From Astrocystis sublimbata (Eukaryota; Ascomycota; Sordariomycetes; Xylariales; Xylariaceae), in the NCBI GenBank assembly GCA_022453515.1, contig JAJNNY010000110.1, forward strand, positions 1 through 59,750: a DNA stretch of 59,750 bases. Direction: 5' to 3'. Positions 22,411-59,750 of this stretch are shown here, one piece after another. Made by a program: the position numbers and the translations under genes. The first letter of the stretch is position 1; each line of letters opens with the position of its first letter. Below the pieces are notes generated by a model. That model worked only from the letters and a program-made list of their open reading frames with translations, did no database searches and was not told the DNA's origin.

Positions 22411-25400
22411 AGTTGCTTGACCAAAAGACCGATCGGCCTTGCGACAGATGGTTCAAGTGAGGTGTCGATTTGATCAAGGGGGGGGAGATCGAAATGGGAT
22501 GGGATGGAAGGAGATCGAGTGGAAATTGCGAGAAGGGGCCAAGCCCGCCTCATATATACTGAGACATTCTCGCTTTGCGACCTGACCTGACAGACAGGTT
22601 GCTTCTCTGCCGTGCTACCATGCCACTGCATGTAAGTACGTACCAACCTTTCTCAATGCTGCGCGGGCACATTAAGCTGCGTGTGGCAACGACGGCAAGC
22701 AACCTTGAACCAAACCTACTGAGGGGTCCGCACGACGCCTCCCGAGGTGGACTGTCCAATGAGACGACACCTTTCTATCAAGCCGCACATGGCATATCTA
22801 CGAAGTCTTTGGAGGGCGGAAGACTGGGCCAAGGCACACCAAAGCATCCCGCATGCGGCCCTGGCACGATACCTACAGGGGGGCCAGGGGAGGGGGGATA
22901 ACGGCCGCCACCCCAAGGTAGATTGCCCAATCACAAGACGCAATTCTATCAATCGAAGGGAGTTCAATAGAAAAGACCCCTGCCGGGATCTTGGTGTATC
23001 CGAAGAACTGGACTTTCCTGTCGAGCCTGTCGGTGCGCACTGGACCGGCCGAGAGCTAAGCTTGTTAGCGTCGGGGTGGGGGGAGGCGCTTGTTATATCA
23101 GTTCTAGGTCCAAGTTCGAGAACTACTCGTACATCTTTAGACACACGCTGCGACTCCTTATTTGGAAGGTCGTGAGACACACGCATAGCGTCGCTGCGCA
23201 GAGGCTGAGAAGAACGTGGAGAGCTACAGCTATCATCTATCTTAGTACGTGCCGTTATCTTCTCTCTCTCTTCATGACCTCCGCAATCCATCCCAAGAAA
23301 GAGATCGAGAGGAAAAAAAGATAGTGCTGGCTCAGTGGCAAAATAGGCGACGGGGAAAGACACGGCCACGGCGATCTTTCGAGGCGGCCCGGCCATTCAC
23401 TCTGGGCTGCTGCTGGACTGGACCGACAGGTCTCAGAAAGGTGGCTTGAGGGGCTCGAGGTGATCGACACAGCCAGCCATTGTTTGTCCTGGCTGGCTTC
23501 TCTATGCCACAAAGAAGTGCCCACTGCACGTTACACCACCTGACTTGTACCACGATAACAAGATGAAGAACAGCCACACACCGATGGTTGCCGCTTGAGG
23601 AGCTGGAGGGGCTGGGGCCGGGGGGTGGTGTCTGTTTCCCTTTCGAGCTGGCCTTTGATTCCGCGCAACCAATAAGTTCGAGTTCGGTATTCCGCACCAA
23701 AAGGTTGAGTTAAGCTCTTGCGTGGCGGCATTGGTCGTGCTGCTGTCCAAAGGATTGCTGAAGTCTGCTAGTAGTTCTAGGTCGAGTTCGACGACGATCC
23801 TTCCAACGTTCTAGCATCGCTTGGAAATCCCCAACCAACCTTCCTTCGTTTCGCGGAAATAAAACAGCGTGCGTCTGTTGCTTAGCGGCGTGGAAAAGGC
23901 TTGTTTGGGGTGCATGTGACAAGCAGATCTGAGGGCATGTAACATGACCATGATCCCAGCTTGATCATGATAAGTGCAGTACCTACATCAGTCCTATGCT
24001 GGCTTGAGCTGCAATCCACTCTAAGGTACCTATGCACCACACTGCACCAGAAAAGTGTACTTGCTTTCTACCTAGTGCCCAATCCTCCCATTAAGCTCCA
24101 AACCGCCTAGGATGCAGATAACGGAACGGCAAACGTTAGCAGCAAGGCAAGCCCGTTTCTCCAGACATCCACGACAAGCTCCGGTCCTCTGACTTCGCGG
24201 TGGTCGCCTTTAGTACGCTCCGCTAGCCAGCCAACTGCGGAATTGAACTTTAACGTCGACATGACTTGGCGAATGCGCGAACTTCGAGTAATTTACGACG
24301 CAACTAACAGGGCGTTTCACGAAGTTAATCAAACTCAAATATAGGTAAGGTAAGGTAAGGTGGACTTCTGGGTTACTCGTAGATAAAGCAATGCTAATTA
24401 ATTTAGTCTTTTCCCCGCCAATCTGGGGAAATTACAAACATTACCAACGCTTCTGATTCCATGACACAGCAAAACTCAAGAGACATAGACACAATCACAG
24501 TACTACTATGTTTGCAGATTTACCTCTCTGATGGCATGGATATTTGGAATCCTATGTCGTTTCCAGCTTAGCCCCGATATAACCCCGATCAAGGATCCAC
24601 CTCATATCATCTGCGCTAATTCTGTCCGGCAGGCCGGCTAGACAAGACCGTGTCTAGCTTGCTTGGTTCTATGCTACCTACAAGGATGCCAGGGCGGAAG
24701 CATGAATGGTTCTGTGATAGAAGCTACCTTACCGAGGTCCTGCCTTCATTGAACTACGGTACTGTAAATACTGGTTGTCGATCACACACGAAGGTGACGC
24801 TGAGATCTGGAGGGCTGGCGAATTCCTTCTCGAACAATACGTCGTCGAACGTAGTGTGGCAACACTCTTAAATGATCGACAGCGCGTTTTTGCCGCTTCA
24901 CAGGGAGGGTGTGGTCACTCGTGGTCGTGGATGGGCGAATCGGGTAAATAAAGACCTTTTTGGATGTTGTCGGGGTTGTGTAAGTGTAAGTGGCATGTAA
25001 TGCACCTCCAAGTACACAAAGGGCAGACGGTATGTAGTATTGAAGCTGATTGGGGCGATCGAAGACGTGCCTATTCCCGGACAAGAAGGTCTTCCGCAAA
25101 GGCTAGTTAGCTAGCTGTAAGTACCCCAGCCGCCGGCCGTAAGGCTATCTATTTGTATATGTGTAGGTAGAGCTAAGTAGTTTCGTATCGACCACTTTGT
25201 TGACCCTATGAGTAGAGTAGGCTACCTAAGGTTGGGTTGTTTGTTCATTGTCGTGTGATTTGCTGGCGTGCGACGATCTTTTTCTACTTGGCATGTTCCG
25301 ATGGGGGACGAGGTGGACCTCGGCTGAACCACCCACACACACACCCACGCAATGCGACGCTGCAGGATGCAATAGATACCTACCCGTCGCAGCAAGCAAG

Positions 25401-25574
25401 GATCATGGGAATGCCATAAATGTCTTCGTTTGCTAGGTGTGCTAGATTGTTTGCCTATTCCAGCTATTATACTCTTGTGAAGTGATTACAGTATGTGGAA
25501 AGCATATGTTGAGAAAGCTGGATGGACAGACAGATATGTATGTAGGTCTCACCGTCAGATCTCAGCTAAGCACG

Positions 25575-25626
25575 TTCCTGATCCCTCTTTCTGATCCCTC
25601 TTTTCGGTCCCTCTTCTTGATCCCTC
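25575..25626 (+). repeat. 13-bp tandem repeat, four units (mirror copy near 57,910-57,965)
   Basis: Units TTCCTGATCCCTC, TTTCTGATCCCTC, TTTTCGGTCCCTC and TTCTTGATCCCTC, then a partial fifth. Intergenic. Confidence 0.7.
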
Positions 25627-28127
25627 TTCCTGATATGCTGCATATTGCAGTATGGTGTGGGGTATATAACCTTGTCATAGGATTCCTACGCAGATATAGG
25701 TAGATTGCATGAGACGGTCACATGTTAAGAAGCACCGCTTTAGAAGCAGTATCTTGCGATGATAGCATATACCTCCTCCAATTGCATACTCTTGAATGCC
25801 AATTGAATAGCCTACTCAACTCGACTGACATCCGCTCCCCTCACTTCGCCTCGGGCAGAAAGTACTCAGGCGGTTTTAGTTCTATATTAATTACCGTGTT
25901 AGACAACGCCATTCCCGCTCACCTACCGCCATGAGTCGCGCGACCTCACATAGCACCGGGACACAGAGTGCCGGCGCGTTTGCTACTGCGTCCATGATGC
26001 ATCGTATCGTCTCTCTTGGCTGATGATAGACCGCAAGTGAATATCTGGCTGGCGGATACGGTTAGCATCTCCGGCGCTGGCTCCCGAAGCTATACCCGCT
26101 TCTGTGCATGTCGCCCGGGCCTACCGATACGCCGTAACGCCACAGTTCAACAAGCTTATCTTTAAGTCCTTTGCGATTTGAAGGACACAATTCTAGCATG
26201 TGTGTACCTGGTAGTAAGAACCTTACAAATTTAGCAGTTCTGAGAGTTTGTCTTTGTCTACTAACAAGCCTAGGCTTGAGCTTAAATCTGAATCATTGCT
26301 TTACGAGATTCTTACGAAGGAATGACACAAAAAAACCCATGCCCCTTCGACTAACAATTAAGGTCGAATGGGTGGGCAGAAGGCTAAGCGTCTAGCAATC
26401 TAGATCCCGCGTGGGCGAACTGCAACGCTACGCTACCTAACTGTGTATCCAGATGGCTAAGTGTACTTAGCGCATCGCCTTGCCACATGCCTATTCCGCT
26501 CTACGGTATTCTATGGTCGCAGTCACGCGACACTTTGTCAAGACTTTCTAAGAAGCCTTGGCATGGCTATAGGTATTCAAGCACTCAGCCATGTCAAGCT
26601 TACTTGGCCAACATCTTTGATTCGATCCGTATTCGATGTGGCCAATGGGAGTCGGCGCAGCCCTCCCTTGTATGATAGGTATGAAGTGATAGCCTATTGG
26701 ACTCAAGTGTGCGTGCTAATGCGAACATGTACGGCAAACAGGTTCATGGCAAAACCAAGTATCATTGGTATTCGTACCGAGTTATGTTGGGTACATACAT
26801 TCGGAATCGAGCCTTTCTTGAAGCAATTGGCTTGGCTGTGCGGAAACATGCCGTCGCCAAGACTCGAGCGCCCAACACCAAGAACTAAATCGAGGGGCGG
26901 GCGGGCAACCACCAGATAAGACCCCCTCGTTAGCGCCAACAGGAATAACTACCTGCATGGGATGTGCAGATTATCTGTCCAGAGAACACATAGTACTTCA
27001 CTGATGTATTCGGGGGTTTCGCCGCACCAACCAACAATCTGGACCGATCATCTCGGCCCCTCGGGTGAGTGAGGAGTCGTTTCCGACACTCCGGGTCAGC
27101 GAATGATCGGCTACAAGGGATGTAGTAGCTGGGTTTGCAAGCATGTGTAACGTGGCGAGCGTGGGTTGTGAGTCGAGACTTTACACTAGCTGCTGCTGTG
27201 CATCTATGATGCGTGCTTGCTTGTTATCATGGGCTTGGGCTCGACTTGGCATGCTGGGATGCTGCAATTTCTCAAGTGCTCCCTGTCGTGATGCTAGTAG
27301 GGCTGATCGTGATGTTGGGGCTGGATGGGTCACTGTTTGTTCAGCTGTGATCACATACGTCTTAAGCTTATGTGTAGGTACTTACCTTGGTAGGTACGTA
27401 TTAAGGCTCTGGTGATGATACATATCTTGAACGAATGATAAACATTAAACGTGTAGGTAGTCCCCAAGATAAGTTCATTCTGGTTATCAGCTACATTTGA
27501 ACATCTTAATAGCATTGAGTCATTGGATTCTTAAGGATGTCAAGAAGAATAGAGGAGTACAGACGGCAACTTGTGCGGCTCTCGGGTCCCCTCCCACGCA
27601 CTTATCAATTTCAGAAGAAGTATTTGCGTTCCAAGCGTCACAACGAAGCTGAGTCCAAATGATCGATCGATCCCTCGAGTCGGGGTAGCTTAAGGGAACA
27701 CATGCTATGAGGCAATCTATCTGTACATCATCACGTCAACATAGGCTAACTGCAACTCGTAAACAAAATGAGCGCGTATGGTGAACAAATTAGGGCTATG
27801 AGTAAACTTGGAGAAGCGTTAAGAAAGTTTACGACGAATGTTTTAAGCGAGTTGAACCCACCTGTCATCACTGCAAGCGTGCAGATGGGCTAGAGCTAGA
27901 TAGCGGGTTTTTGTCTATCGATCTATATTTGATGAATCTTTTGCCTTTCGTGTGGCATTTGATACCCTGGCGCTCTCCATCAGCGACGCGTGAGAGAAAA
28001 GGGGATGAGGGGGAAAGCAGAGAGAAGAATGGGAGGCCCATCTGCGTAACTCTTCATTGCTGAAGTGTTATGATCCCTGGGTTTTGTCCATGTGTGCGAG
28101 CAAAACGTGTTGAATGTAAAATTCTTG

Positions 28128-28188
28128 GACTCTTTTAGCTCATCCCATAGAGGCGAATACGCGACAGACATCAGATATAGCGCTGTCC
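28128..28188 (-). pseudogene. Relic of a DUF6536 gene 3' end
   Basis: These 61 bp align without gaps to 30094..30154, which spans the stop codon of the DUF6536 gene and its downstream flank. I count 48 of 61 identical, and 10 of the 13 differences are transitions. On the minus strand both read GQRYI followed by TGA. It lies beyond the secreted-protein gene, so a tail of a once-duplicated gene seems to have been left there. The mirror copy is near 55,350-55,411. Confidence 0.55.
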
Positions 28189-28490
28189 TTCTATTGTTGT
28201 CTCGCGGCTGTCCATCCAAGAAAGCCTGTCCGATACACTGAAGTCCTAGCTCGCCTACCCAGTGTTCCTATGTTGAAGCTTAACAGGCATTAGTATTTGG
28301 CAAGTTCGAGAATGAACTGATGTACCTTTCATAATTTCTACTTAAACACAGTCATTTATATATTTAGGATATGGTGCCGGGCAGAAATGTTGAGTATATT
28401 CGGTGAGCCTAAACCTTTAGATAACAATCGTACACAAGTAGTATCGGGACCGAAAAAAACATCGGGCCGTCGATATCACGCCATGGCTTT

Positions 28491-29350
28491 CTAAGATATA
28501 GCAACCTTCATCAAGTCAACTAGTTCACAAGTCGGGTTATGCGACTTCCCCGCCGTGATCCACGACAGCGTCTTTGCTGCAATGCCGTATGGCCCCGCCC
28601 AGCATATCGCCCAGTTATCTGCGACATCAAGTCAGTCAATCAAACATGCTTGCCTCTCCATCGACTCGGTACATATCGAAGAGCAGGTTGATTGATCATC
28701 CTGGGAACTCACAAATATTTAAATCCTTGCCAATACTAACGGGCTCCCCCGTGACCGCATCCGCATCATCCATGTAGTAGTTCAGAAACAGTTTACCCTC
28801 TTCGTCGAACGCTGTATAATCGACGTTCTGAGCCGTGGCTCTGCCTAACATAGGCGTCGCGACGTTGGTGTTGGGCTGGTACCGCAGGTTCATGGCCATG
28901 CCGTGGTAACCCTCGCCATTGATCGGCGCATCCGGGTTCGCGATGTCGGAGACGATGAAGCCGAGCTCGGCGCCGTTTTCGTTTTGTGTAAGTCCGGTGT
29001 AGTTGAAGTAGAAGCGGAAGGACGAGTTGTCGAAGGAGGGGGTGTTGGTGTTGTCGTAGTAGTTCAATAGTTGGAGAGGCGGCGTGGCTCCATTGACTGA
29101 GCTCGTGTAGAGGTAGCCTGGGTGAGAGGTAAGTAAAGGGGTTGGGATTATCAACTAATTGTTTTTTATTCCATTTGTGAGATAATTGGAATTAGCGGCC
29201 CTCACCGTTAATTGAGCTGTTGAACCCTCGGCCCTTGACATGCAGGGCAAACGGGCCCTTTGAAAAGAGTTCGGCGTGGTTGCCGATTTGTGCAACGACT
29301 CCTGTACCCGCGGCGAGGGCCCAGAGTGATGCTACGTTTTGGAACTTCAT
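28491..29350 (-). CDS. Small secreted protein, DUF7907-like (left arm copy)
   Basis: Exons 29350..29206, 29117..28713 and 28618..28491 join to 225 residues. A signal peptide is evident: MKFQNVASLWALAAGTGVVA, then QIGNHAELF, with likely cleavage after residue 20. The mature part has sequons NSS (twice) and NYT, a Gly/Asn-rich beta-type middle, and a C-terminal block YNWAICWAGPYG ... SWITAGKSHNPTC with two cysteines. That block and the overall layout resemble the fungal DUF7907 secreted family as I know it. Role unknown; an extracellular or effector-like function is speculation. The last exon supplies both cysteines, so the splice matters. The intron 1 length differs by one base between the arms (GGGG at 29138..29141, three in the other arm). 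Confidence 0.75.
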
Positions 29351-30136
29351 GATGTAGACGTAATTCTGCCGTGCACGCTGGTAATGTAATGTTCACTTTG
29401 ATGGGAATGTGGCAAGGGAAAAGCGATGTTGTGTCCGACCAAGAAATGCGGCAAGGAGTCAGCGCGTTTGTTGACTATATATTTATTCCCAACACCGTGC
29501 ATCCAACCTTCATCACCATATCTCTAGGCAAAGTCACCTCAAATGAGGCTGTGGTGTTTAGTGCATATAGGGGCAGTCTGGGATTAGACCGGGATGTTGG
29601 CAAAGTGTCAGCTTCTGAATCCAGACCTAACTTTCGAAGGCCCCGGAATCCGGCATATCAACGCGCTTCGCGTGCGACGTTATTGTAAGTTAGTGAGCAC
29701 TACCAACGAGACAAAAGCAAAGGCCGGGGAATCCGGCTTGGTAGCCACGAACACGTTGAAAATACGAGGTGGGAGTTGAACCCTGTTAGTACCCACAATG
29801 ACTTGCGGAGTGCCTTTTAATACCCCTACGAGCCCTATAAACTCGCAAGCATGTTGGAAAATGGCGATCCTTACAGGTTTGCCATTTCAAGTTAGAAAAT
29901 CTTATGCTGTACCGGCCTCGGCGAGTCCGGGCATAAAGGTCAACAGGACGGTCCCGACTGGTTTAATATGGAGATTGCGTTCTACTCCCGAAGATCTTGA
30001 CCAGGGCTCGAGTCTCTGCCAATGCCAGGGAGTTGCTGAGACTACCTACCTCCTACCTAAGGTACACTACCCTGCACCAACCTTGCTTGCTGAGCCTCTT
30101 TCAGCTCATTTCATCGGAGCAAACACGCGACAGAAA
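29351..30136. other. Promoter of the secreted-protein gene
   Basis: 786 bp between the stop of the DUF6536 gene and the start of the secreted protein, both on the minus strand. Short GC hairpins (CCGGATTCCCCGG-like) occur near 29,720-29,745. No gene recognised. Confidence 0.5.
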
Positions 30137-32785
30137 TCAGATGTAGCGTTGCCCTTCCTTAGGCCCCTCGCCAACCGTCGCCTCGTCCCCAAAACCTAGG
30201 TGAAGTACCCCTTCCATGTCTCCGCCGTTCGTTGTCTCTTCCACATGCGGCGGTATTGGCATCGTGCCCCATTTGACCAGTGATTGAGCTAGTTTTCGAC
30301 GTCTTTCCTTCAGATCGATGATCTCGTTATTTGTTGTTGTGGCTCGCAGATCCTCTGCGGTTGGGAGCGTGTTATCTGGTGTGTCATCTATGGTTCTTAG
30401 CACTGCGTAGGTTAACTCAACGACAGGGGCGTAAGTTTGTCGAGGCACCTACCAATGTCATCTTCTGGTGGGGAAGCCGTGGATTGTTGGTCGGGTTCCT
30501 GGTGTGGTGGGATGTAGCCGTGACATGCTGCCGAGATAACCAGGGAGTTTGTGCCTCCGCTCGGCATCGATCCTTTGACTTTGGCCTGGCTGAATAGAAA
30601 TGGGAGTGTTGATAACACCACGGTGGTAATGAAAAGTACTAGCGCAGCAGTGGGTGAGTAACCGATTGAAATGTATGATGGCCCTGTTACTCCGAAATAC
30701 TGTTTAGGACGCCGATTGTCCGAATTCCGGGAGTAATAAGAGTCAAGCCAGTTCGTATTCCCCCGAAATCCTGGGTTTCAGTCAGCGTTTGAGTAGCATG
30801 GAAGTTCATCTTGAGAAAGCGCACACTTACCCCCCTCTACTACGAAAATGAATATAGTATTCCCTACTAGCCAATGGAATAACGCACTACCGAGTATAAG
30901 GGGAATGCTGTGTCTATATGGCAACTGCAAGCGGTAACTCGATATCTGCTGTCCCTTGGGATAGGAAACTCGCAGTGGTTTATGAATCAAGCTGTATTCA
31001 CTCCACTCGTGTTCCACTTGCAGGTGAGTAAAAAGGGCATTGTAATAGTAGTAGTATGTTGACACAAATATTTGAGGAAGATTGACAAATAGAAGTGCGT
31101 TAGAATAGTCTTGGGCAAACGGGAAAACAGTATTGATTTCGCTGTTTCCGAACCGTCTATGGCTAAGCAAGTCAACACAATGATACGGAAAATATAACGT
31201 GATTTGGGATTTTGGGAGTGATGAAACTTCGGGGGGACACTTACAACTTTGCTCCACCATTCTCCCAAAATACTTGCAGCACTACCAAAGATACTAGGAC
31301 GACCGCGAAAGACAAGTAGCAATATGCATCTGCCCACACAACTGGTGGTACGACTCTGGAAAGTCGTGCCCCTTTATTCAACCATGCATGAGGCATTGTT
31401 GTTGAGGTTGTCAGCTCTGCATCTCCATCTTCGGGCAAGACTTTGGGTATTTGGTAAGAAAACTGGCGACAGTTGAAAACGTCGAGAGTGCAAAGTCCGG
31501 CTGTCATACGATCCGGCGCCATGATGAATGACTCTATCGCATCACCGGGAGTTACAAGTGACTGGTGCCGCAGGTTCCAAAGTATCGCCGTGCATGTAAT
31601 TGCTGTCGCAAACACAGCCACAATGACACCTAAAAGGAGATAGTTGGATAAAACGACCTTGTGGTTGCCTGATAAAGGTTCTGCGAGACAGAACTTTACC
31701 TTGAACGTATCGTATCCTTCGTGGTAGCCATAATCCGAGGTGATTTGTGACCTTGAATGCTGAAACTCAATTTGCCACTCAGATGATAGCGAAACATCAT
31801 CGCCGTCCGGTATTCTTGTTCGATTTAGCCCAAGTGCTAGACCGCAATTAGAGTCACAGCCCCCAGATGCCATGTCTGATCCTATGACTCTTATTGTGCA
31901 CCGAGCAGAAAACCATAAAGGATTAGTTGTATTGGGCGGGATGTGCGCATCCCAGAACGATGCAAGATTTCCTGGACGAAGATCAAATACCTCACTTCGA
32001 GTCCAGCCATTCCTGCCGGAGTTGTTGGGCTCAACAACGATTACGACGTCCCCGTATTCCTGTCGTGGCTTGCAAGGTAAATACTCCGCCTGACATTCCT
32101 GAGGATTTAAACGATGCCAATTAGTTGCTGATTTTGCGACTGTCGCTAGTTGTCGGTATGTAGGCGAGGTCAAATTCCAATACTCTTCCAGGGCGATATA
32201 TTCACCATAGCCGTCATTGTCGGGATTTGAAGGCCTAGAAGTACCAGAAGGAGAGAGGCTCGCTCCAGGCGGGTAAAATCGAGCACCCTGAGTGAAAGGT
32301 TCGGTCGCAATTGTGAGATGCCAATCTGACCCCTGAAAGTCAGTCTTGAAGATGGACGAACTGAAGAGCAGGTGAACTGGAATTGATCCGAGTATTAGTA
32401 ACCCCCAGGCAACCCCTTTCCAAGGCGACAATACTTTGAGATTTCGAAGAGAAGGCACTCCGATATCCAAAGACTGCAACCGCGCATGAGCTTTATCTAT
32501 GTCCTCGCGAGATGGGGCTGTGACGATTTGCATAAAGAAATTGGACGACGCGAAAATTCCAGTAGATATTAACGAGATTGTAATATGCAATATCAGGTTT
32601 ATGTTTTCTGCGTTGCTTGCGTTCATCCGATATACCACTGTTGCTTGACTGAGGGACGATCCAGGTCTTGCTATGCTCACGATAAGCAGTACGAGAAGGA
32701 TGATACCAATACCCAGTAAACAGGCGACATATATTGCACCGGCACGTTGCCACCCAGTAAGGGTGTTTCCTTTAAGAGCGGTCAT
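30137..32785 (-). CDS. DUF6536-type multi-pass membrane protein, paralog 2 (intact copy)
   Basis: Exons 32785..31245, 31156..30831, 30770..30453 and 30402..30137; all junctions are GT..AG and the frame closes at 816 residues, close to the 820 of paralog 1. Landmarks: N-terminal helix (GAIYVACLLGIGIILLVLLI), LISTGIFASSNFFMQIV, APSREDIDKAH, DIGVPSLRNLKVL, a long glycosylatable loop, then C-terminal helices with LRVSYPKGQQISSYRLQLPY, GYSPTAALV and TNSLVISAACHG, and a tail EGQRYI. Exon 2 could instead begin six bases earlier (31162), adding two residues in frame. The last intron is 50 nt with a TTAAC branch site. Family function is unknown. The right-arm copy is frameshifted, so this one is the reference. 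Confidence 0.87.
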
Positions 32786-33396
32786 GTTTTAATGGAACCA
32801 ATGTTTTTATTACTCAAGTGATTTCAAATGATGCTGTGAAGACAAGTTAGCTGCTGATATGGGAATGGCTCGCCTATAGCTCCCTGCTCTAATGTCTTCA
32901 TCACGTAGGTAATAATAGTCGAGTCAGCCTGTGCTACCCCTTAAGTTACGGAGAAGGCTGTTCTACATTGATAGGTAATTAAAGGCACCCAGGCTGTCTT
33001 ATTTTAGCATTCCTTAACGCATAAAAGCATACTAGGGAGCTGATTTGGGGGCAATGTTGGTTTACCAATACAACATCGGACAGCCACAAAGATCGATGGT
33101 TCAGCCCCCACTACAAGTACCATCTTTACTCACTTAGAGTTCTATTCCTTTCTATTCATATTGCTGGACTTTTAGGCACTCTTTCGCCAGCCACCCCCTG
33201 AGTTACCAGCTGGCGATTGCATTGTATTCACGAATCGCTTATCATTCCCTATAAGCATGGGGATTGTAGTACTTCCATCTGTATCAGGCCTATCATAGCG
33301 AACCTTAAGATCTTATAATGTTCTTGTTTTAAAGAATATGACTTGAGCTGCTTTTCATTTCATATCTCTGTCATTTGATTCGCCTTTAAATGTACC
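32786..33396. promoter_or_regulatory. Divergent promoter, DUF6536 gene / 206-residue membrane protein
   Basis: 611 bp between divergent starts. A segment at about 33,051-33,113 is bounded by GGGGGCA and AGCCCCC, a short inverted pair. No binding site is assigned. Confidence 0.4.
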
Positions 33397-34120
33397 ATGT
33401 CTCGTGATTGCTTCTTCGCAGCAGTGGAAATTGCTAGGATCCTTCGTTTGGTTATTTTCTTCCTTGTAATTAATCCAATTGAGCATAATGGCTTTAGCAT
33501 CCTCCTCCAGTTGCCACAAATTCCATTGTTTTTCATTAGCACCGTGAGTAGAGAGTGATTCGTCCAATTAAGGAAAGCCTGAACTGACATAAATAGGGAG
33601 CCATAACTTTCTCAAGAGATGTAGTGGATATTCTTGATTTGCAAAGGGGTTGTTTTGATCCATTTCCCCCTTGCTCAGGTCTCGTCACCGAAGGGTTGGT
33701 CACAGTAGAAGCATGGTTTCTGCTACTCTATACTCCATTATACGCTTTACAACCATACTTGTTTGGGGGCACAATCTGGAGTGTTATTTCTGCGCGCACG
33801 TTACTCGGAACCTTATCCGTGAGCCTCTTCATACCATGCAATGCGTAAGATCCGCCTATTCAAGGTATCATAGCATTACTAACAATGTTCGAAGGCTTTT
33901 AAGCACATTTATACTTTATCAGACGAGTTTGAGATATGTTGAAGATAAGAGACGCGCTCGAGAATTCCGACCGATGCTCACGTTCACATCCACCGGTGAA
34001 CCAGTGCTCGTGCTGAAGAGGAGACAGGCTGTCTTCAATCCCGCCTACGACGCATCGATGGACTCGCTACTAATCCAGTCAACGGACGAGTCATACGTGA
34101 TGGAAGCATTCGACGTTTGA
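33397..34120 (+). CDS. Predicted 206-residue membrane protein, unknown family (left arm copy)
   Basis: Reconstructed from three exons: 33397..33543, 33597..33844 and 33895..34120. Introns are 53 nt (GTGAGT, CTGAC branch, ATAG) and 50 nt (GTAAGA, ACTAAC branch, GAAG), and the phases close. It starts MSRDCFFAAVEIARILRLV. Hydrophobic segments follow at about residues 14-26, 32-48, 78-100 and 104-122 (VEAWFLLLYTPLYALQPYLF; SARTLLGTLSVSLF). A short fourth stretch spans the second junction (STFILYQTSLRYVEDK). The C-terminal 65 residues are polar, with TGEPVLVLKRRQAVFNPAY and an acidic end. I do not recognise the family. It converges on drs1. Confidence 0.62.
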
Positions 34121-34648
34121 GCTTTTCTAAGCTGCACTTTCATGTATCGCACCGCATTCTGTTGGGAATATCATGTAATACACGTTTGACGTGAAGGGTT
34201 CTTGAAGTGGGGGCGATTGGTTCAGGTATCGCCCCTTGGACATGCATAGTATCTGTTTAAGTTCTCCGCGACCCTAGGTTGCTTCCTCTCTTTGCTTCTT
34301 TTGCATCATTCTAAAATACAACATACATCATCTGTACATCGTCCAAATACCTTTGATGGGGGCGGACCCCACGTAGCTTGGGGGTCGGGGGCCAGGGGCG
34401 CAGCCCTCCCCGCTTCATCCCTGATCTGATCGACAGGAGGGGGCCGTCAGCAAGGCAGGAAGCAAGGCAGTCAGTCAGTCTGACTCTCTGACTCTGAGCC
34501 GCCTTGCGCATTATACTTAGAAGACGGCAGACCATTCGCGTGTTCCAATTGGCACCAATCCTAAGGCAGTTTATCATTCATCTCAGCCCGTATATCACAC
34601 ATTACCTAAGTACGTACGTATTACTTCCCTCCCTCCCTCACTCACTCA
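34121..34648. other. Convergent 3' region, membrane protein / drs1
   Basis: 528 bp between two convergent stop codons. It holds a GC-rich stretch (34,358-34,410) and GTCA/GACT repeats near 34,455-34,500. No gene recognised. Confidence 0.5.
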
Positions 34649-36013: not shown

Positions 36014-36044
<31 letters not shown>

Positions 36045-41782: not shown

Positions 41783-42872
41783 TAAAATAGTATAATTAAT
41801 ACCTTGGGTACCTACCAGTTTCCCCTTATATCAACTCCTAGTCTTGAGCCGTCCAGTCCGTCAAATTGATAAAAACTTGACAACGTGAGAACCTCTAGCA
41901 TAAAACAACGGGGAGGGGTACGATTCAGCGCAATTCATTAAGACTAGACCAGACCAAAACAACACAAAACAAAACAGAGCAAAACATACTAGAGCAAAGC
42001 AAAGCAGAGCAGAGCAGTGCGCTCAACGAGGTATTATTTATTACTATCATGACTTCTTCTCCTCTGTGATGCATATTACATAATTACTACATGCTCACTT
42101 CAGGTTGATTCTCTTGCTCTCATTTCCCTCTACAGCTGCCAAGCAAGCAGGAGGGAGAGAGAAGACAATAGCGAGCTGGCTAGCTAGCTAGATAGATAAA
42201 TAGATACCTAGATAGATCTATTGATTCATTCGTTCGTTTTTTGGTTGTTCGGTGTGTGTATGCATTCATGCTCATCGCATCCTTGAGTAGGTAGGTAGGT
42301 AGGTAGGTATCCTCGCGCACTTGACCACCCTCCACAAACGATCCTGTTCCGCTCTCAGTCCTGGTCTCGGCCCTAACCTAAACTCATTCATTTAGGAATG
42401 ACAACCTCCCTAACTGTATCAGTATTGCGCCCTTGCGCCCTTGCCGAGCCGTAATTACCAATCAATCAATCCGTACCATATTGCTCCTATTCCGTGCCCG
42501 CCATGCTATCCCCGTGATGGAAGGTCGAAGAGCCGCCGCAATCTCAATCGCAACCGCCTATGATGGCAATGACAGTGCCGGCATGCTCGAGCCGAACTCC
42601 TGCCATTCCCGGAATCTCAAACGCCTTGAAATGCAGAGAGTAATGTTCGTGTGTGTGGTGTGGTCTGGTGTAATGTCTCGTGACATCACGTAAAATGCTA
42701 TAAAGTGGGCGCGCCAATGAGAACGAGCCGCATGAAGTTCCTGGATGACGCCGGTTCCAGTTGAGCTGAGCAGAGTATCATATGCGAAACGCCGAGAAGG
42801 AAAAGTCAACTGTAATCGCCATGCTTTCTTCTACCTTCCGTAATCGGTTCCCTGTGTGTCGACTGGAAGGCA

Positions 42873-47499: not shown

Positions 47500-47530
<31 letters not shown>

Positions 47531-48895
47531 GGACGGCTTCGCCGACGAGCTCAACGAGATCCTCACTACTCTCCCCAAATCGCGCCAGACCATGCTCTTC
47601 TCTGCCACCATGACGTCCTCGGTAGATCGCCTGATCCGCGTCGGCATGAGCAAGCCTGTGCGTGTCATGGTCGACTCGCAGCGGAAAACAGTCGATAAGC
47701 TCGAGCAGAAGTTTGTCAGGTTAAGGCCGGGCAGGGAGGATAAGCGCATGGGCTACCTGTTGCATATCTGTAAGACGATGCACACGGAGCGCGTCGTCAT
47801 TTTCTTCAGACAGAAGAAAGACGCGCATAGAGCACGGATCATCTTTGCGTTGTTCAATCTCACTTGTGCGGAGCTGCATGGTGGGTTGAACCAGAGTCAG
47901 GTAAGCCTTCCTTTCTTTCTTTCTTTCTTTCTTTTCATTTCTTTTTCTCTCTTTTGTTGGGTTGCGTTGAGATGATATAATTACTATCATGAAATGATCT
48001 ATCTACACATCAAGCTAACACATCCACCCATCCACAGCGCATCGCCAGCGTTGAGTCCTTCCGCGACGGCAAAGTCAACTTCCTCATCGCCACCGACCTC
48101 GCGTCCCGCGGTCTCGACATCAAGGGCATCGACACCGTCATCAACTACGAAGGGCCGCAGACCCCCGAAATTTATGTGCACAGAGTCGGCCGCACAGCCC
48201 GTGCCGGCCGCTCCGGTGTCGCCATTACTCTTGCAGCCGAGTCGGACCGCAAAGTCGTCAAAGCCGTCGTCAAAGCCGGCAAGGCGCAAAAAGCCAAGAT
48301 CTCCTCCCTATTAATCGAGCAAAGCGACGCGGATTCCTGGGCCGACAAGATCGACGCACTGGAAGTGGAAATTCAAGAAGTAGAAAAAGAAGAGAAGGAA
48401 GAAAAACAATTCGCCAATGCCGAGATGCAGATCCGCAAGGGCGAGAACATGGTGTTGCATGAAGATGAGATCAAGGGCAGGCCGAAACGCACGTGGTTCG
48501 AGACGCAGGCGGATAAGAAGGCTTCGAAAGAGGCTGGACGCAATGAGTTGAATGGCATGCGGGAGAACCTGAAGAAGAAGAGTGGGGGGAGACTCAGTGG
48601 CAAGGATCGCAAGAAGCTGGATAGTAAGCTTGAGAGGAAGAATGAGGAGGATGGGAAGGGAGATAGGATGTGGAAGAAGGGTAAGGCCGAGCGGGCCGGG
48701 AAGGGCGCTGTTTTGAATTTTGGGGGCAAAAACAAGGGGGGTGCTAAGGGGAAGAAGGATGGTAAGAAGGGGGGTGTAAGGGGAGATGGGGGAGATGGAG
48801 AAGGAGGGAGGGCGAAGACCGGCGCGGGGGTCAAGAAGTCGGGTGGTGTGAGGATGGGAAGTAGGGCGCCTGCGAGGGGTGGGAAGAGAAGGTGA
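46248..48895 (+). CDS. drs1: DEAD-box RNA helicase Drs1 (right arm copy)
   Basis: Exon 1 is 46248..47900 and exon 2 is 48038..48895, giving 836 residues identical to the left-arm protein with all helicase motifs intact ([24 protein letters not shown]). The intron has the same length, including its CTTT run. A second perfect copy of an essential single-copy gene is unusual and bears on whether the palindrome is real. Confidence 0.93.
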
Positions 48896-49423
48896 TGAGT
48901 GAGTGAGGGAGGGAGGGAAGTAATACGTACGTACTTAGGTAATGTGTGATATACGGGCTGAGATGAATGATAAACTGCCTTAGGATTGGTGCCAATTGGA
49001 ACACGCGAATGGTCTGCCGTCTTCTAAGTATAATGCGCAAGGCGGCTCAGAGTCAGAGAGTCAGACTGACTGACTGCCTTGCTTCCTGCCTTGCTGACGG
49101 CCCCCTCCTGTCGATCAGATCAGGGATGAAGCGGGGAGGGCTGCGCCCCTGGCCCCCGACCCCCAAGCTACGTGGGGTCCGCCCCCATCAAAGGTATTTG
49201 GACGATGTACAGATGATGTATGTTGTATTTTAGAATGATGCAAAAGAAGCAAAGAGAGGAAGCAACCTAGGGTCGCGGAGAACTTAAACAGATACTATGC
49301 ATGTCCAAGGGGCGATACCTGAACCAATCGCCCCCACTTCAAGAACCCTTCACGTCAAACGTGTATTACATGATATTCCCAACAGAATGCGGTGCGATAC
49401 ATGAAAGTGCAGCTTAGAAAAGC
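48896..49423. other. Convergent 3' region (right arm copy)
   Basis: Mirror of 34121..34648, same length. No gene recognised. Confidence 0.5.
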
Positions 49424-50147
49424 TCAAACGTCGAATGCTTCCATCACGTATGACTCGTCCGTTGACTGGATTAGTAGCGAGTCCATCGATGCGTCGTAGG
49501 CGGGATTGAAGACAGCCTGTCTCCTCTTCAGCACGAGCACTGGTTCACCGGTGGATGTGAACGTGAGCATCGGTCGGAATTCTCGAGCGCGTCTCTTATC
49601 TTCAACATATCTCAAACTCGTCTGATAAAGTATAAATGTGCTTAAAAGCCTTCGAACATTGTTAGTAATGCTATGATACCTTGAATAGGCGGATCTTACG
49701 CATTGCATGGTATGAAGAGGCTCACGGATAAGGTTCCGAGTAACGTGCGCGCAGAAATAACACTCCAGATTGTGCCCCCAAACAAGTATGGTTGTAAAGC
49801 GTATAATGGAGTATAGAGTAGCAGAAACCATGCTTCTACTGTGACCAACCCTTCGGTGACGAGACCTGAGCAAGGGGGAAATGGATCAAAACAACCCCTT
49901 TGCAAATCAAGAATATCCACTACATCTCTTGAGAAAGTTATGGCTCCCTATTTATGTCAGTTCAGGCTTTCCTTAATTGGACGAATCACTCTCTACTCAC
50001 GGTGCTAATGAAAAACAATGGAATTTGTGGCAACTGGAGGAGGATGCTAAAGCCATTATGCTCAATTGGATTAATTACAAGGAAGAAAATAACCAAACGA
50101 AGGATCCTAGCAATTTCCACTGCTGCGAAGAAGCAATCACGAGACAT
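49424..50147 (-). CDS. Predicted 206-residue membrane protein (right arm copy)
   Basis: Exons 50147..50001, 49947..49700 and 49649..49424, the exact mirror of 33397..34120, with the same two short introns and the same predicted protein. Unknown family; see the left-arm entry for the hydrophobic segments. Confidence 0.6.
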
Positions 50148-50758
50148 GGTACATTTAAAGGCGAATCAAATGACAGAGATATGAAATGAAAAGCAGCTCA
50201 AGTCATATTCTTTAAAACAAGAACATTATAAGATCTTAAGGTTCGCTATGATAGGCCTGATACAGATGGAAGTACTACAATCCCCATGCTTATAGGGAAT
50301 GATAAGCGATTCGTGAATACAATGCAATCGCCAGCTGGTAACTCAGGGGGTGGCTGGCGAAAGAGTGCCTAAAAGTCCAGCAATATGAATAGAAAGGAAT
50401 AGAACTCTAAGTGAGTAAAGATGGTACTTGTAGTGGGGGCTGAACCATCGATCTTTGTGGCTGTCCGATGTTGTATTGGTAAACCAACATTGCCCCCAAA
50501 TCAGCTCCCTAGTATGCTTTTATGCGTTAAGGAATGCTAAAATAAGACAGCCTGGGTGCCTTTAATTACCTATCAATGTAGAACAGCCTTCTCCGTAACT
50601 TAAGGGGTAGCACAGGCTGACTCGACTATTATTACCTACGTGATGAAGACATTAGAGCAGGGAGCTATAGGCGAGCCATTCCCATATCAGCAGCTAACTT
50701 GTCTTCACAGCATCATTTGAAATCACTTGAGTAATAAAAACATTGGTTCCATTAAAAC
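50148..50758. promoter_or_regulatory. Divergent promoter (right arm copy)
   Basis: Mirror of 32786..33396, 611 bp, no additional element identified. Confidence 0.4.
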
Positions 50759-53405
50759 ATGACCGCTCTTAAAGGAAACACCCTTACTGGGTGGCAACGT
50801 GCCGGTGCAATATATGTCGCCTGTTTACTGGGTATTGGTATCATCCTTCTCGTACTGCTTATCGTGAGCATAGCAAGACCTGGATCGTCCCTCAGTCAAG
50901 CAACAGTGGTATATCGGATGAACGCAAGCAACGCAGAAAACATAAACCTGATATTGCATATTACAATCTCGTTAATATCTACTGGAATTTTCGCGTCGTC
51001 CAATTTCTTTATGCAAATCGTCACAGCCCCATCTCGCGAGGACATAGATAAAGCTCATGCGCGGTTGCAGTCTTTGGATATCGGAGTGCCTTCTCTTCGA
51101 AATCTCAAAGTATTGTCGCCTTGGAAAGGGGTTGCCTGGGGGTTACTAATACTCGGATCAATTCCAGTTCACCTGCTCTTCAGTTCGTCCATCTTCAAGA
51201 CTGACTTTCAGGGGTCAGATTGGCATCTCACAATTGCGACCGAACCTTTCACTCAGGGTGCTCGATTTTACCCGCCTGGAGCGAGCCTCTCTCCTTCTGG
51301 TACTTCTAGGCCTTCAAATCCCGACAATGACGGCTATGGTGAATATATCGCCCTGGAAGAGTATTGGAATTTGACCTCGCCTACATACCGACAACTAGCG
51401 ACAGTCGCAAAATCAGCAACTAATTGGCATCGTTTAAATCCTCAGGAATGTCAGGCGGAGTATTTACCTTGCAAGCCACGACAGGAATACGGGGACGTCG
51501 TAATCGTTGTTGAGCCCAACAACTCCGGCAGGAATGGCTGGACTCGAAGTGAGGTATTTGATCTTCGTCCAGGAAATCTTGCATCGTTCTGGGATGCGCA
51601 CATCCCGCCCAATACAACTAATCCTTTATGGTTTTCTGCTCGGTGCACAATAAGAGTCATAGGATCAGACATGGCATCTGGGGGCTGTGACTCTAATTGC
51701 GGTCTAGCACTTGGGCTAAATCGAACAAGAATACCGGACGGCGATGATGTTTCGCTATCATCTGAGTGGCAAATTGAGTTTCAGCATTCAAGGTCACAAA
51801 TCACCTCGGATTATGGCTACCACGAAGGATACGATACGTTCAAGGTAAAGTTCTGTCTCGCAGAACCTTTATCAGGCAACCACAAGGTCGTTTTATCCAA
51901 CTATCTCCTTTTAGGTGTCATTGTGGCTGTGTTTGCGACAGCAATTACATGCACGGCGATACTTTGGAACCTGCGGCACCAGTCACTTGTAACTCCCGGT
52001 GATGCGATAGAGTCATTCATCATGGCGCCGGATCGTATGACAGCCGGACTTTGCACTCTCGACGTTTTCAACTGTCGCCAGTTTTCTTACCAAATACCCA
52101 AAGTCTTGCCCGAAGATGGAGATGCAGAGCTGACAACCTCAACAACAATGCCTCATGCATGGTTGAATAAAGGGGCACGACTTTCCAGAGTCGTACCACC
52201 AGTTGTGTGGGCAGATGCATATTGCTACTTGTCTTTCGCGGTCGTCCTAGTATCTTTGGTAGTGCTGCAAGTATTTTGGGAGAATGGTGGAGCAAAGTTG
52301 TAAGTGTCCCCCCGAAGTTTCATCACTCCCAAAATCCCAAATCACGTTATATTTTCCGTATCATTGTGTTGACTTGCTTAGCCATAGACGGTTCGGAAAC
52401 AGCGAAATCAATACTGTTTTCCCGTTTGCCCAAGACTATTCTAACGCACTTCTATTTGTCAATCTTCCTCAAATATTTGTGTCAACATACTACTACTATT
52501 ACAATGCCCTTTTTACTCACCTGCAAGTGGAACACGAGTGGAGTGAATACAGCTTGATTCATAAACCACTGCGAGTTTCCTATCCCAAGGGACAGCAGAT
52601 ATCGAGTTACCGCTTGCAGTTGCCATATAGACACAGCATTCCCCTTATACTCGGTAGTGCGTTATTCCATTGGCTAGTAGGGAATACTATATTCATTTTC
52701 GTAGTAGAGGGGGGTAAGTGTGCGCTTTCTCAAGATGAACTTCCATGCTACTCAAACGCTGACTGAAACCCAGGATTTCGGGGGAATACGAACTGGCTTG
52801 ACTCTTATTACTCCCGAATTCGGACAATCGGCGTCCTAAACAGTATTTCGGAGTAACAGGGCCATCATACATTTCAATCGGTTACTCACCCACTGCTGCG
52901 CTAGTACTTTTCATTACCACCGTGGTGTTATCAACACTCCCATTTCTATTCAGCCAGGCCAAAGTCAAAGGATCGATGCCGAGCGGGAGGCACAAACTCC
53001 CTGGTTATCTCGGCAGCATGTCACGGCTACATCCCACCACACCAGGAACCGACCAACAATCCACGGCTTCCCCACCAGAAGATGACATTGGTAGGTGCCT
53101 CGACAACTTACGCCCCTGTCGTTGAGTTAACCTACGCAGTGCTAAGAACCATAGATGACACACCAGATAACACGCTCCCAACCGCAGAGGATCTGCGAGC
53201 CACAACAACAAATAACGAGATCATCGATCTGAAGGAAAGACGTCGAAAACTAGCTCAATCACTGGTCAAATGGGGCACGATGCCAATACCGCCGCATGTG
53301 GAAGAGACAACGAACGGCGGAGACATGGAAGGGGTACTTCACCTAGGTTTTGGGGACGAGGCGACGGTTGGCGAGGGGCCTAAGGAAGGGCAACGCTACA
53401 TCTGA
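50759..53405 (+). pseudogene. DUF6536 paralog 2, frameshifted right-arm copy
   Basis: Exons by mirror: 50759..52299, 52388..52713, 52774..53090 and 53140..53405. The first 1,541 nt and exon 2 match the intact copy. In exon 3 a missing G near 52,816 shifts the frame and brings a TAA at 52854..52856. An extra G (52985..52987 is GGG against GG) and a missing C near 53,049 follow, net -1. As written the protein ends early in exon 3 and loses the last helices and the ISAACHG block. The last intron is also one base shorter. These changes may be sequence error rather than decay, because nothing else in the gene differs. Confidence 0.8.
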
Positions 53406-54189
53406 TTTCTGTCGCGTGTTTGCTCCGATGAATGAGCTGAAAGAGGCTCAGCAAGCAAGGTTGGTGCAGGGTAGTGTACCTTAGGTAGGAGGTAGTAGTC
53501 TCAGCAACTCCCTGGCATTGGCAGAGACTCGAGCCCTGGTCAAGATCTTCGGGAGTAGAACGCAATCTCCATATTAAACCAGTCGGGACCGTCCTGTTGA
53601 CCTTTATGCCCGGACTCGCCGAGGCCGGTACAGCATAAGATTTTCTAACTTGAAATGGCAAACCTGTAAGGATCGCCATTTTCCAACATGCTTGCGAGTT
53701 TATAGGGCTCGTAGGGGTATTAAAAGGCACTCCGCAAGTCATTGTGGGTACTAACAGGGTTCAACTCCCACCTCGTATTTTCAACGTGTTCGTGGCTACC
53801 AAGCCGGATTCCCCGGCCTTTGCTTTTGTCTCGTTGGTAGTGCTCACTAACTTACAATAACGTCGCACGCGAAGCGCGTTGATATGCCGGATTCCGGGGC
53901 CTTCGAAAGTTAGGTCTGGATTCAGAAGCTGACACTTTGCCAACATCCCGGTCTAATCCCAGACTGCCCCTATATGCACTAAACACCACAGCCTCATTTG
54001 AGGTGACTTTGCCTAGAGATATGGTGATGAAGGTTGGATGCACGGTGTTGGGAATAAATATATAGTCAACAAACGCGCTGACTCCTTGCCGCATTTCTTG
54101 GTCGGACACAACATCGCTTTTCCCTTGCCACATTCCCATCAAAGTGAACATTACATTACCAGCGTGCACGGCAGAATTACGTCTACATC
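53406..54189. other. Promoter of the secreted-protein gene (right arm copy)
   Basis: Mirror of 29351..30136, two bases shorter because of single-base differences near 53,431 and 53,495. No gene recognised. Confidence 0.5.
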
Positions 54190-55048
54190 ATGAAGTTCCA
54201 AAACGTAGCATCACTCTGGGCCCTCGCCGCGGGTACAGGAGTCGTTGCACAAATCGGCAACCACGCCGAACTCTTTTCAAAGGGCCCGTTTGCCCTGCAT
54301 GTCAAGGGCCGAGGGTTCAACAGCTCAATTAACGGTGAGGGCCGCTAATTCCAATTATCTCACAAATGGAATAAAAAACAATTAGTTGATAATCCCAACC
54401 CTTTACTTACCTCTCACCCAGGCTACCTCTACACGAGCTCAGTCAATGGAGCCACGCCGCCTCTCCAACTATTGAACTACTACGACAACACCAACACCCC
54501 CTCCTTCGACAACTCGTCCTTCCGCTTCTACTTCAACTACACCGGACTTACACAAAACGAAAACGGCGCCGAGCTCGGCTTCATCGTCTCCGACATCGCG
54601 AACCCGGATGCGCCGATCAATGGCGAGGGTTACCACGGCATGGCCATGAACCTGCGGTACCAGCCCAACACCAACGTCGCGACGCCTATGTTAGGCAGAG
54701 CCACGGCTCAGAACGTCGATTATACAGCGTTCGACGAAGAGGGTAAACTGTTTCTGAACTACTACATGGATGATGCGGATGCGGTCACGGGGGAGCCCGT
54801 TAGTATTGGCAAGGATTTAAATATTTGTGAGTTCCCAGGATGATCAATCAACCTGCTCTTCGATATGTACCGAGTCGATGGAGAGGCAAGCATGTTTGAT
54901 TGACTGACTTGATGTCGCAGATAACTGGGCGATATGCTGGGCGGGGCCATACGGCATTGCAGCAAAGACGCTGTCGTGGATCACGGCGGGGAAGTCGCAT
55001 AACCCGACTTGTGAACTAGTTGACTTGATGAAGGTTGCTATATCTTAG
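54190..55048 (+). CDS. Small secreted protein, DUF7907-like (right arm copy)
   Basis: Exons 54190..54334, 54422..54826 and 54921..55048. The 225-residue product is the same as that of 28491..29350: signal peptide MKFQNVASLWALAAGTGVVA, three N-glycosylation sequons, and a C-terminal WAIC ... NPTC block. The only arm difference inside the gene is one C fewer in intron 1 (54399..54401), which does not affect the product. Confidence 0.73.
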
Positions 55049-58000
55049 AAAGCCATGGCGTGATATCGACGGCCCGATGTTTTTTTCGGTCCCGATACTA
55101 CTTGTGTACGATTGTTATCTAAAGGTTTAGGCTCACCGAATATACTCAACATTTCTGCCCGGCACCATATCCTAAATATATAAATGACTGTGTTTAAGTA
55201 GAAATTATGAAAGGTACATCAGTTCATTCTCGAACTTGCCAAATACTAATGCCTGTTAAGCTTCAACATAGGAACACTGGGTAGGCGAGCTAGGACTTCA
55301 GTGTATCGGACAGGCTTTCTTGGATGGACAGCCGCGAGACAACAATAGAAGGACAGCGCTATATCTGATGTCTGTCGCGTATTCGCCTCTATGGGATGAG
55401 CTAAAAGAGTCCAAGAATTTTACATTCAACACGTTTTGCTCGCACACATGGACAAAACCCAGGGATCATAACACTTCAGCAATGAAGAGTTACGCAGATG
55501 GGCCTCCCATTCTTCTCTCTGCTTTCCCCCTCATCCCCTTTTCTCTCACGCGTCGCTGATGGAGAGCGCCAGGGTATCAAATGCCACACGAAAGGCAAAA
55601 GATTCATCAAATATAGATCGATAGACAAAACCCGCTATCTAGCTCTAGCCCATCTGCACGCTTGCAGTGATGACAGGTGGGTTCAACTCGCTTAAAACAT
55701 TCGTCGTAAACTTTCTTAACGCTTCTCCAAGTTTACTCATAGCCCTAATTTGTTCACCATACGCGCTCATTTTGTTTACGAGTTGCAGTTAGCCTATGTT
55801 GACGTGATGATGTACAGATAGATTGCCTCATAGCATGTGTTCCCTTAAGCTACCCCGACTCGAGGGATCGATCGATCATTTGGACTCAGCTTCGTTGTGA
55901 CGCTTGGAACGCAAATACTTCTTCTGAAATTGATAAGTGCGTGGGAGGGGACCCGAGAGCCGCACAAGTTGCCGTCTGTACTCCTCTATTCTTCTTGACA
56001 TCCTTAAGAATCCAATGACTCAATGCTATTAAGATGTTCAAATGTAGCTGATAACCAGAATGAACTTATCTTGGGGACTACCTACACGTTTAATGTTTAT
56101 CATTCGTTCAAGATATGTATCATCACCAGAGCCTTAATACGTACCTACCAAGGTAAGTACCTACACATAAGCTTAAGACGTATGTGATCACAGCTGAACA
56201 AACAGTGACCCATCCAGCCCCAACATCACGATCAGCCCTACTAGCATCACGACAGGGAGCACTTGAGAAATTGCAGCATCCCAGCATGCCAAGTCGAGCC
56301 CAAGCCCATGATAACAAGCAAGCACGCATCATAGATGCACAGCAGCAGCTAGTGTAAAGTCTCGACTCACAACCCACGCTCGCCACGTTACACATGCTTG
56401 CAAACCCAGCTACTACATCCCTTGTAGCCGATCATTCGCTGACCCGGAGTGTCGGAAACGACTCCTCACTCACCCGAGGGGCCGAGATGATCGGTCCAGA
56501 TTGTTGGTTGGTGCGGCGAAACCCCCGAATACATCAGTGAAGTACTATGTGTTCTCTGGACAGATAATCTGCACATCCCATGCAGGTAGTTATTCCTGTT
56601 GGCGCTAACGAGGGGGTCTTATCTGGTGGTTGCCCGCCCGCCCCTCGATTTAGTTCTTGGTGTTGGGCGCTCGAGTCTTGGCGACGGCATGTTTCCGCAC
56701 AGCCAAGCCAATTGCTTCAAGAAAGGCTCGATTCCGAATGTATGTACCCAACATAACTCGGTACGAATACCAATGATACTTGGTTTTGCCATGAACCTGT
56801 TTGCCGTACATGTTCGCATTAGCACGCACACTTGAGTCCAATAGGCTATCACTTCATACCTATCATACAAGGGAGGGCTGCGCCGACTCCCATTGGCCAC
56901 ATCGAATACGGATCGAATCAAAGATGTTGGCCAAGTAAGCTTGACATGGCTGAGTGCTTGAATACCTATAGCCATGCCAAGGCTTCTTAGAAAGTCTTGA
57001 CAAAGTGTCGCGTGACTGCGACCATAGAATACCGTAGAGCGGAATAGGCATGTGGCAAGGCGATGCGCTAAGTACACTTAGCCATCTGGATACACAGTTA
57101 GGTAGCGTAGCGTTGCAGTTCGCCCACGCGGGATCTAGATTGCTAGACGCTTAGCCTTCTGCCCACCCATTCGACCTTAATTGTTAGTCGAAGGGGCATG
57201 GGTTTTTTTGTGTCATTCCTTCGTAAGAATCTCGTAAAGCAATGATTCAGATTTAAGCTCAAGCCTAGGCTTGTTAGTAGACAAAGACAAACTCTCAGAA
57301 CTGCTAAATTTGTAAGGTTCTTACTACCAGGTACACACATGCTAGAATTGTGTCCTTCAAATCGCAAAGGACTTAAAGATAAGCTTGTTGAACTGTGGCG
57401 TTACGGCGTATCGGTAGGCCCGGGCGACATGCACAGAAGCGGGTATAGCTTCGGGAGCCAGCGCCGGAGATGCTAACCGTATCCGCCAGCCAGATATTCA
57501 CTTGCGGTCTATCATCAGCCAAGAGAGACGATACGATGCATCATGGACGCAGTAGCAAACGCGCCGGCACTCTGTGTCCCGGTGCTATGTGAGGTCGCGC
57601 GACTCATGGCGGTAGGTGAGCGGGAATGGCGTTGTCTAACACGGTAATTAATATAGAACTAAAACCGCCTGAGTACTTTCTGCCCGAGGCGAAGTGAGGG
57701 GAGCGGATGTCAGTCGAGTTGAGTAGGCTATTCAATTGGCATTCAAGAGTATGCAATTGGAGGAGGTATATGCTATCATCGCAAGATACTGCTTCTAAAG
57801 CGGTGCTTCTTAACATGTGACCGTCTCATGCAATCTACCTATATCTGCGTAGGAATCCTATGACAAGGTTATATACCCCACACCATACTGCAATATGCAG
57901 CATATCAGGAAGAGGGATCAAGAAGAGGGACCGAAAAGAGGGATCAGAAAGAGGGATCAGGAACGTGCTTAGCTGAGATCTGACGGTGAGACCTACATAC

Positions 58001-59750
58001 ATATCTGTCTGTCCATCCAGCTTTCTCAACATATGCTTTCCACATACTGTAATCACTTCACAAGAGTATAATAGCTGGAATAGGCAAACAATCTAGCACA
58101 CCTAGCAAACGAAGACATTTATGGCATTCCCATGATCCTTGCTTGCTGCGACGGGTAGGTATCTATTGCATCCTGCAGCGTCGCATTGCGTGGGTGTGTG
58201 TGGGTGGTTCAGCCGAGGTCCACCTCGTCCCCCATCGGAACATGCCAAGTAGAAAAAGATCGTCGCACGCCAGCAAATCACACGACAATGAACAAACAAC
58301 CCAACCTTAGGTAGCCTACTCTACTCATAGGGTCAACAAAGTGGTCGATACGAAACTACTTAGCTCTACCTACACATATACAAATAGATAGCCTTACGGC
58401 CGGCGGCTGGGGTACTTACAGCTAGCTAACTAGCCTTTGCGGAAGACCTTCTTGTCCGGGAATAGGCACGTCTTCGATCGCCCCAATCAGCTTCAATACT
58501 ACATACCGTCTGCCCTTTGTGTACTTGGAGGTGCATTACATGCCACTTACACTTACACAACCCCGACAACATCCAAAAAGGTCTTTATTTACCCGATTCG
58601 CCCATCCACGACCACGAGTGACCACACCCTCCCTGTGAAGCGGCAAAAACGCGCTGTCGATCATTTAAGAGTGTTGCCACACTACGTTCGACGACGTATT
58701 GTTCGAGAAGGAATTCGCCAGCCCTCCAGATCTCAGCGTCACCTTCGTGTGTGATCGACAACCAGTATTTACAGTACCGTAGTTCAATGAAGGCAGGACC
58801 TCGGTAAGGTAGCTTCTATCACAGAACCATTCATGCTTCCGCCCTGGCATCCTTGTAGGTAGCATAGAACCAAGCAAGCTAGACACGGTCTTGTCTAGCC
58901 GGCCTGCCGGACAGAATTAGCGCAGATGATATGAGGTGGATCCTTGATCGGGGTTATATCGGGGCTAAGCTGGAAACGACATAGGATTCCAAATATCCAT
59001 GCCATCAGAGAGGTAAATCTGCAAACATAGTAGTACTGTGATTGTGTCTATGTCTCTTGAGTTTTGCTGTGTCATGGAATCAGAAGCGTTGGTAATGTTT
59101 GTAATTTCCCCAGATTGGCGGGGAAAAGACTAAATTAATTAGCATTGCTTTATCTACGAGTAACCCAGAAGTCCACCTTACCTTACCTTACCTATATTTG
59201 AGTTTGATTAACTTCGTGAAACGCCCTGTTAGTTGCGTCGTAAATTACTCGAAGTTCGCGCATTCGCCAAGTCATGTCGACGTTAAAGTTCAATTCCGCA
59301 GTTGGCTGGCTAGCGGAGCGTACTAAAGGCGACCACCGCGAAGTCAGAGGACCGGAGCTTGTCGTGGATGTCTGGAGAAACGGGCTTGCCTTGCTGCTAA
59401 CGTTTGCCGTTCCGTTATCTGCATCCTAGGCGGTTTGGAGCTTAATGGGAGGATTGGGCACTAGGTAGAAAGCAAGTACACTTTTCTGGTGCAGTGTGGT
59501 GCATAGGTACCTTAGAGTGGATTGCAGCTCAAGCCAGCATAGGACTGATGTAGGTACTGCACTTATCATGATCAAGCTGGGATCATGGTCATGTTACATG
59601 CCCTCAGATCTGCTTGTCACATGCACCCCAAACAAGCCTTTTCCACGCCGCTAAGCAACAGCAACAGACGCACGCTGTTTTATTTCCGCGAAACGAAGGA
59701 AGGTTGGTTGGGGATTTCCAAGCGATGCTAGAACGTTGGAAGGATCGTCG
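55049..59750. other. Gene-poor end of the right arm
   Basis: Mirror of about 23,792-28,490. It contains the mirror copies of the DUF6536 3' relic (about 55,350-55,411), the 13-bp tandem repeat (about 57,910-57,965) and the GGTAA run. There is a CA/AC-repeat difference near 58,200 and a 6-bp tandem difference near 59,662. No supported gene. Confidence 0.6.

Follow-up and report, generated by a model that had tools for sequence, protein, structure and literature searches.

The giant palindrome in a contig of Astrocystis sublimbata is very likely a snap-back chimera assembled as a contig end

In living cells, palindromes are reportedly seeded at short inverted repeats, among other ways by origin-dependent inverted-repeat amplification. 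Palindromic molecules are also described as products of DNA handling: palindromes were found in 40–50% of the reads from amplified Arabidopsis, compared to 0.5% of those from a control without amplification, and a further source of palindromic reads, at a lower rate, is named in missed adapters (PMC6218980). The route described is that displaced 3′ ends anneal to nearby displaced strands (PMC13265396). The stretch of DNA compared with these systems here, referred to as the window, corresponds over its 59,750 bp to an entire contig, C14 (G000:C14), of a 42.6-Mb assembly of A. sublimbata (Xylariaceae) in 189 contigs. A BLAST search of the window against its own opposite strand gave a single match at E ≤ 1e-10, spanning positions 23,792–59,750, and this match and the alignment of the two arms confirm the claim of an earlier note, made from the letters alone, that the deposited sequence contains a giant near-perfect palindrome. 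Its centre lies at 41,772.5. The arm coordinates given in that note were right to within one base per arm; the exact inner ends are now 41,763 and 41,782. Since the arms pair up to these positions, the spacer, an AT repeat, amounts to 18 nt (41,764–41,781) and not to the 20 bp proposed. The left arm (23,792–41,763, forward strand) is thus mirrored by a right arm (41,782–59,750, reverse strand) that runs to the contig end.

Arm against arm, 17,961 of 17,978 aligned columns were identical, with no substitution and 11 indel events (17 bases), an identity far above chance expectation. Every indel falls within a homopolymer run of 2–5 bases or within a short tandem repeat, so that the arms differ only as sequencing errors would make them differ, and at 9 of the 11 events it is the right arm that is shorter. 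Nanopore reads are reported to be less accurate in inverted duplicates (PMC7229812); this would suit the shorter right arm, should C14 stem from such reads. The self-match running across the centre contains six mismatches, loop positions being counted twice each. Because the window is the whole contig, the mirror does not extend into unseen sequence of C14: the identity had been thought to run off the window, possibly taking in the gene of an OPT transporter, and the point of lost mirror identity was to be sought beyond 59,750, but the contig stops there and no sequence follows. The OPT transporter ORF (20,092–21,987) lies outside the arms, and a genome search with positions 50,000–59,750 gave near-identical matches to the two arms of C14 only. 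A third near-identical copy of this outer part of the arm was thus not found in the genome; neither was a second copy of the unique first 9 kb of the contig.

Mirrored copies were verified for three genes or ORFs; the earlier note had counted five complete genes. The gene encoding the RNA helicase DRS1, which consists of two coding blocks, is located at 34,652–37,479 on the reverse strand and, as seen by protein match, again at 46,065–48,892 on the forward strand; both copies are intact and each is 100% identical to the deposited A. sublimbata protein, in agreement with the mirrored drs1 noted earlier. Drs1 is essential in yeast, and DRS1 is probably a single-copy gene in the fungus, the copy in the left arm being judged the genuine one. 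An ORF of 514 amino acids with the domain DUF6536 (31,241–32,785, reverse strand) has its mirror image at 50,759–52,303, and an ORF of 561 amino acids that belongs to no Pfam family (38,796–40,481, forward strand) has one at 43,063–44,748. DUF6536, a domain of unknown function, is found in two separate ORFs of C14 (7,800–8,549 and 31,241–32,785). Relatives of the 561-amino-acid ORF come mainly from Xylaria, Nemania, Daldinia and allied fungi, and some of them bear the source name “Cell cycle control protein”.

When the centre of the palindrome was searched against the genome, contig C45 (25,765 bp) was found. Positions 41,634–41,789 of the window are identical over 156 bp to C45:25,610–25,765 on the opposite strand; past window position 41,789, C45 leaves the palindrome and continues unfolded through APP1 (C45:22,373–25,324), whose protein is identical to the A. 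sublimbata protein listed. Hence, the unfolded native sequence across the centre is found in the same assembly, and position 41,789 is suggested to be the junction between C14 and C45. The left arm, being continuous with the unique positions 1–23,791 and overlapping exactly with C45 over these 156 bp, is judged to be the genuine chromosomal copy, and the right arm, its inverted copy, to be artefactual. Gene order in relatives points in the same direction. Among the matches listed, the gene numbers of DRS1 and APP1 follow directly on each other in all four relatives that are serially numbered in both lists, namely Xylaria multiplex, X. hypoxylon, X. longipes and Anthostomella pinea (ten apart in the latter, whose genes are numbered in tens, which was taken as consecutive). 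Furthermore, the two genes lie on contigs of equal size, used as a proxy for one shared contig, in 36 of 40 species among the matches listed. The other four are A. sublimbata itself, in which DRS1 and APP1 are separated at the palindrome, Neoarthrinium moseri, with gene tags from two different assemblies, X. arbuscula, with several assemblies among the matches, and X. flabelliformis. These species lists were transcribed by hand from the named rows among the 120 matches listed per gene. They do not include nameless rows, many rows of other genera that appeared in just one of the lists, or the additional DRS1 rows of X. curta (contig 5,045) and X. arbuscula (contig 15,433), and one DRS1 row with an incomplete name (Pestalotiopsis sp.) was paired through its contig size. 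The relatives back the adjacency of DRS1 and APP1 and not that of every gene in between: in X. hypoxylon the relative of the 561-amino-acid ORF is a weak one (37% identical across 38% of the query) encoded by g2115, which is not located between DRS1 (g2109) and APP1 (g2108). Because C45 carries the unfolded continuation and DRS1 and APP1 are kept together in relatives, C14 followed by C45 is very probably the ancestral, native order.

That the palindrome is stably inherited in the species and provides it with two functional copies of DRS1 is therefore extremely unlikely. The two copies of DRS1 are indeed intact, as this reading would have it, but the ancestral continuation is encoded on C45, and transitions caused by repeat-induced point mutation (RIP) would be expected in inherited arms, which carry no substitution at all. 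RIP leaves transition-only differences as its mark. A dispersed repeat has copies on contigs C38 and C114, and this pair, the one counted, differs by 61 transitions and no transversion in 574 columns, a pattern that is RIP-like and that is absent from the arms of C14. Since there is no transition in 18 kb of arm, the duplication has not passed through RIP, provided that RIP is active.

The centre of the palindrome coincides with the centre of a native 8-bp inverted repeat, the fold-back site, whose halves (41,756–41,763 and 41,782–41,789, both given on the forward strand) enclose the 18-nt spacer as the loop of a stem-loop. The last base of the right half, 41,789, is also the last base that C14 and C45 have in common. 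Stems that reach 8 bp or more and enclose a loop of 3–30 nt occur at only 25 of the 117,314 possible centres in 58.7 kb of native sequence, and in overlapping windows of at least 60% AT they occur at 5 of 10,000. Such a stem at the point of switching is predicted if a folded 3′ end primes its own extension or if a DNA end is closed as a hairpin. However, short inverted repeats also seed real palindromes in living cells, and a centre on a short native inverted repeat fits an artefact and an in-cell duplication alike, so that it does not discriminate between them. According to the latter reading, a break or stalled fork in some nuclei folded at the 8-bp repeat and was copied very recently, yielding a palindromic chromosome end or an extrachromosomal palindrome beside normal chromosomes. 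In-cell fold-back models require exactly such a centre, and arms free of substitutions are expected of a new event. On the other hand, the palindrome does not replace the native arrangement, as would be anticipated for an in-cell duplication; the native arrangement is present on C45, although its presence beside the palindrome may reflect a mixture of nuclei.

It also speaks against a recent duplication in the cell, which we regard as very improbable, that C14 is not the only contig of this kind. In the part of the 189 contigs that was looked at, at least seven contigs including C14 are folded back: C45 (1–17,475), C38 (1–6,777), C2 (1–7,062), C48 (1–7,131) and C57 (1–3,020) at the contig start and C114 (432,260–467,691) at the contig end. 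The check covered the outer ends and the centre region in the case of C114, C2, C48 and C57, the centre of C57 through search coordinates only. C2 and C48 share their starting sequence and represent a single locus in two versions that fold at different points, which leaves six loci. All seven palindromes touch the start or the end of a contig, and the longest arm, with about 18 kb, does not exceed a long read. The duplication would thus have had to arise independently several times within a single culture, every time at a contig end and with arms of at most 18 kb, and twice in different ways at the locus shared by C2 and C48. Moreover, unfolded sequence is present for three of the folds: besides that of C14, the sequence at the fold of C38 is found unfolded on C135, and the sequence at the switch point of C2 on C48, which is itself folded slightly further along.

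The arms of the other palindromes resemble those of C14. No substitution was found between the arms of C45 and C38, compared over nearly their whole length, of C114 (first 3.9 kb) and of C2 and C48 (parts); the centres were left out of these comparisons (42–150 bases in one set of comparisons). In self-matches across the centres there were 5 mismatches in C45, 7 in C38, 13 in C114 and 13 in C2, with loop positions counted twice. The centres measured in five other contigs have an AT content of 64–79% over 200 bp. At the switch point of C2, the sequence of C48 forms, by eye, an 8-bp stem around a 30-nt loop, and the complementarity of its halves was computed. Some observations do not speak for a snap-back artefact. 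The stem at the fold of C38 has only about 5 bp by eye, with small differences around the loop, and is not counted as an exact fit to the snap-back prediction. Furthermore, within the first 4 kb of ten unselected contigs (C1–C3 and C5–C11), a fold-back centre was present in only one (C2) and absent from nine, and it was absent from all three starts picked for a nearby repeat (C143, C110 and C146). For C10, an inverted partner of its first 2 kb was not found by the search, and on that evidence its start is not folded.

An AT-rich family of dispersed repeats is present in dozens of copies (pieces L005 8500–9000, L014 2306–2879 and L015 3326–3896), and the folds of four contigs, C45, C38, C114 and C57, are situated within such copies or beside them. 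The copy at the start of C143 is flanked by a 49-bp inverted repeat that is 90% identical (piece L016 89–137 and 1724–1772) and the copy at the start of C110 by one of 57 bp, likewise 90% identical (piece L017 29–85 and 1836–1892); both may be transposon terminal repeats. It is conceivable, albeit with very low probability, that in some nuclei many short, AT-rich inverted repeats are the sites of real fold-back chromosome ends or of palindromic molecules derived from hairpins. Several of these sites would lie in or beside RIP-mutated repeats, and the palindromes would then reflect a recurring genome instability of the fungus.

We are nearly certain, instead, that the palindrome of C14 is a fold-back (snap-back) chimera which was formed outside the cell and assembled as a contig end. 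We infer the in vitro origin of the folded molecule, and likewise the step responsible. A single strand would have ended, or have been displaced, at the native 8-bp inverted repeat with its 18-nt loop (41,756–41,789), and its 3′ end would have folded onto its own strand and been extended, as may happen during whole-genome amplification; alternatively, a DNA end could have been closed as an adapterless hairpin in the library. A long read of the folded molecule would run down one strand and back up the complement, and the assembler would have taken this read as the end of C14. In the fungus, the chromosome would lead from window position 41,789, beyond DRS1 and the 561-amino-acid ORF, straight into C45 and then APP1. 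Of the two readings left standing by the earlier note, a fold-back error is strongly favoured and a recent inverted duplication disfavoured.

In sum, the palindrome of C14 is with high probability an artefact and not a real chromosomal feature, and its biological importance is probably none. In the assembly of A. sublimbata, several contig ends carry inverted duplications that appear to be false, and therefore gene counts, repeat content and gene order are unreliable there; for example, DRS1 and its neighbours appear twice. Compared with palindromes formed in cells at inverted repeats, C14 has in common the fold-back at a short native inverted repeat. Unlike those, the palindromes described here are spread over a number of distinct loci, each touching the start or end of a contig, with differences consisting of indels only, and at three of the loci the unfolded sequence is contained in the same assembly. 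Palindromic long reads from amplification or missed SMRTbell adapters, as they are described (PMC6218980, PMC13265396), resemble C14 in that a molecule is joined to its own reverse complement and in that false inverted duplications appear in assemblies; the difference is that the folds described here are known only as finished contig ends.
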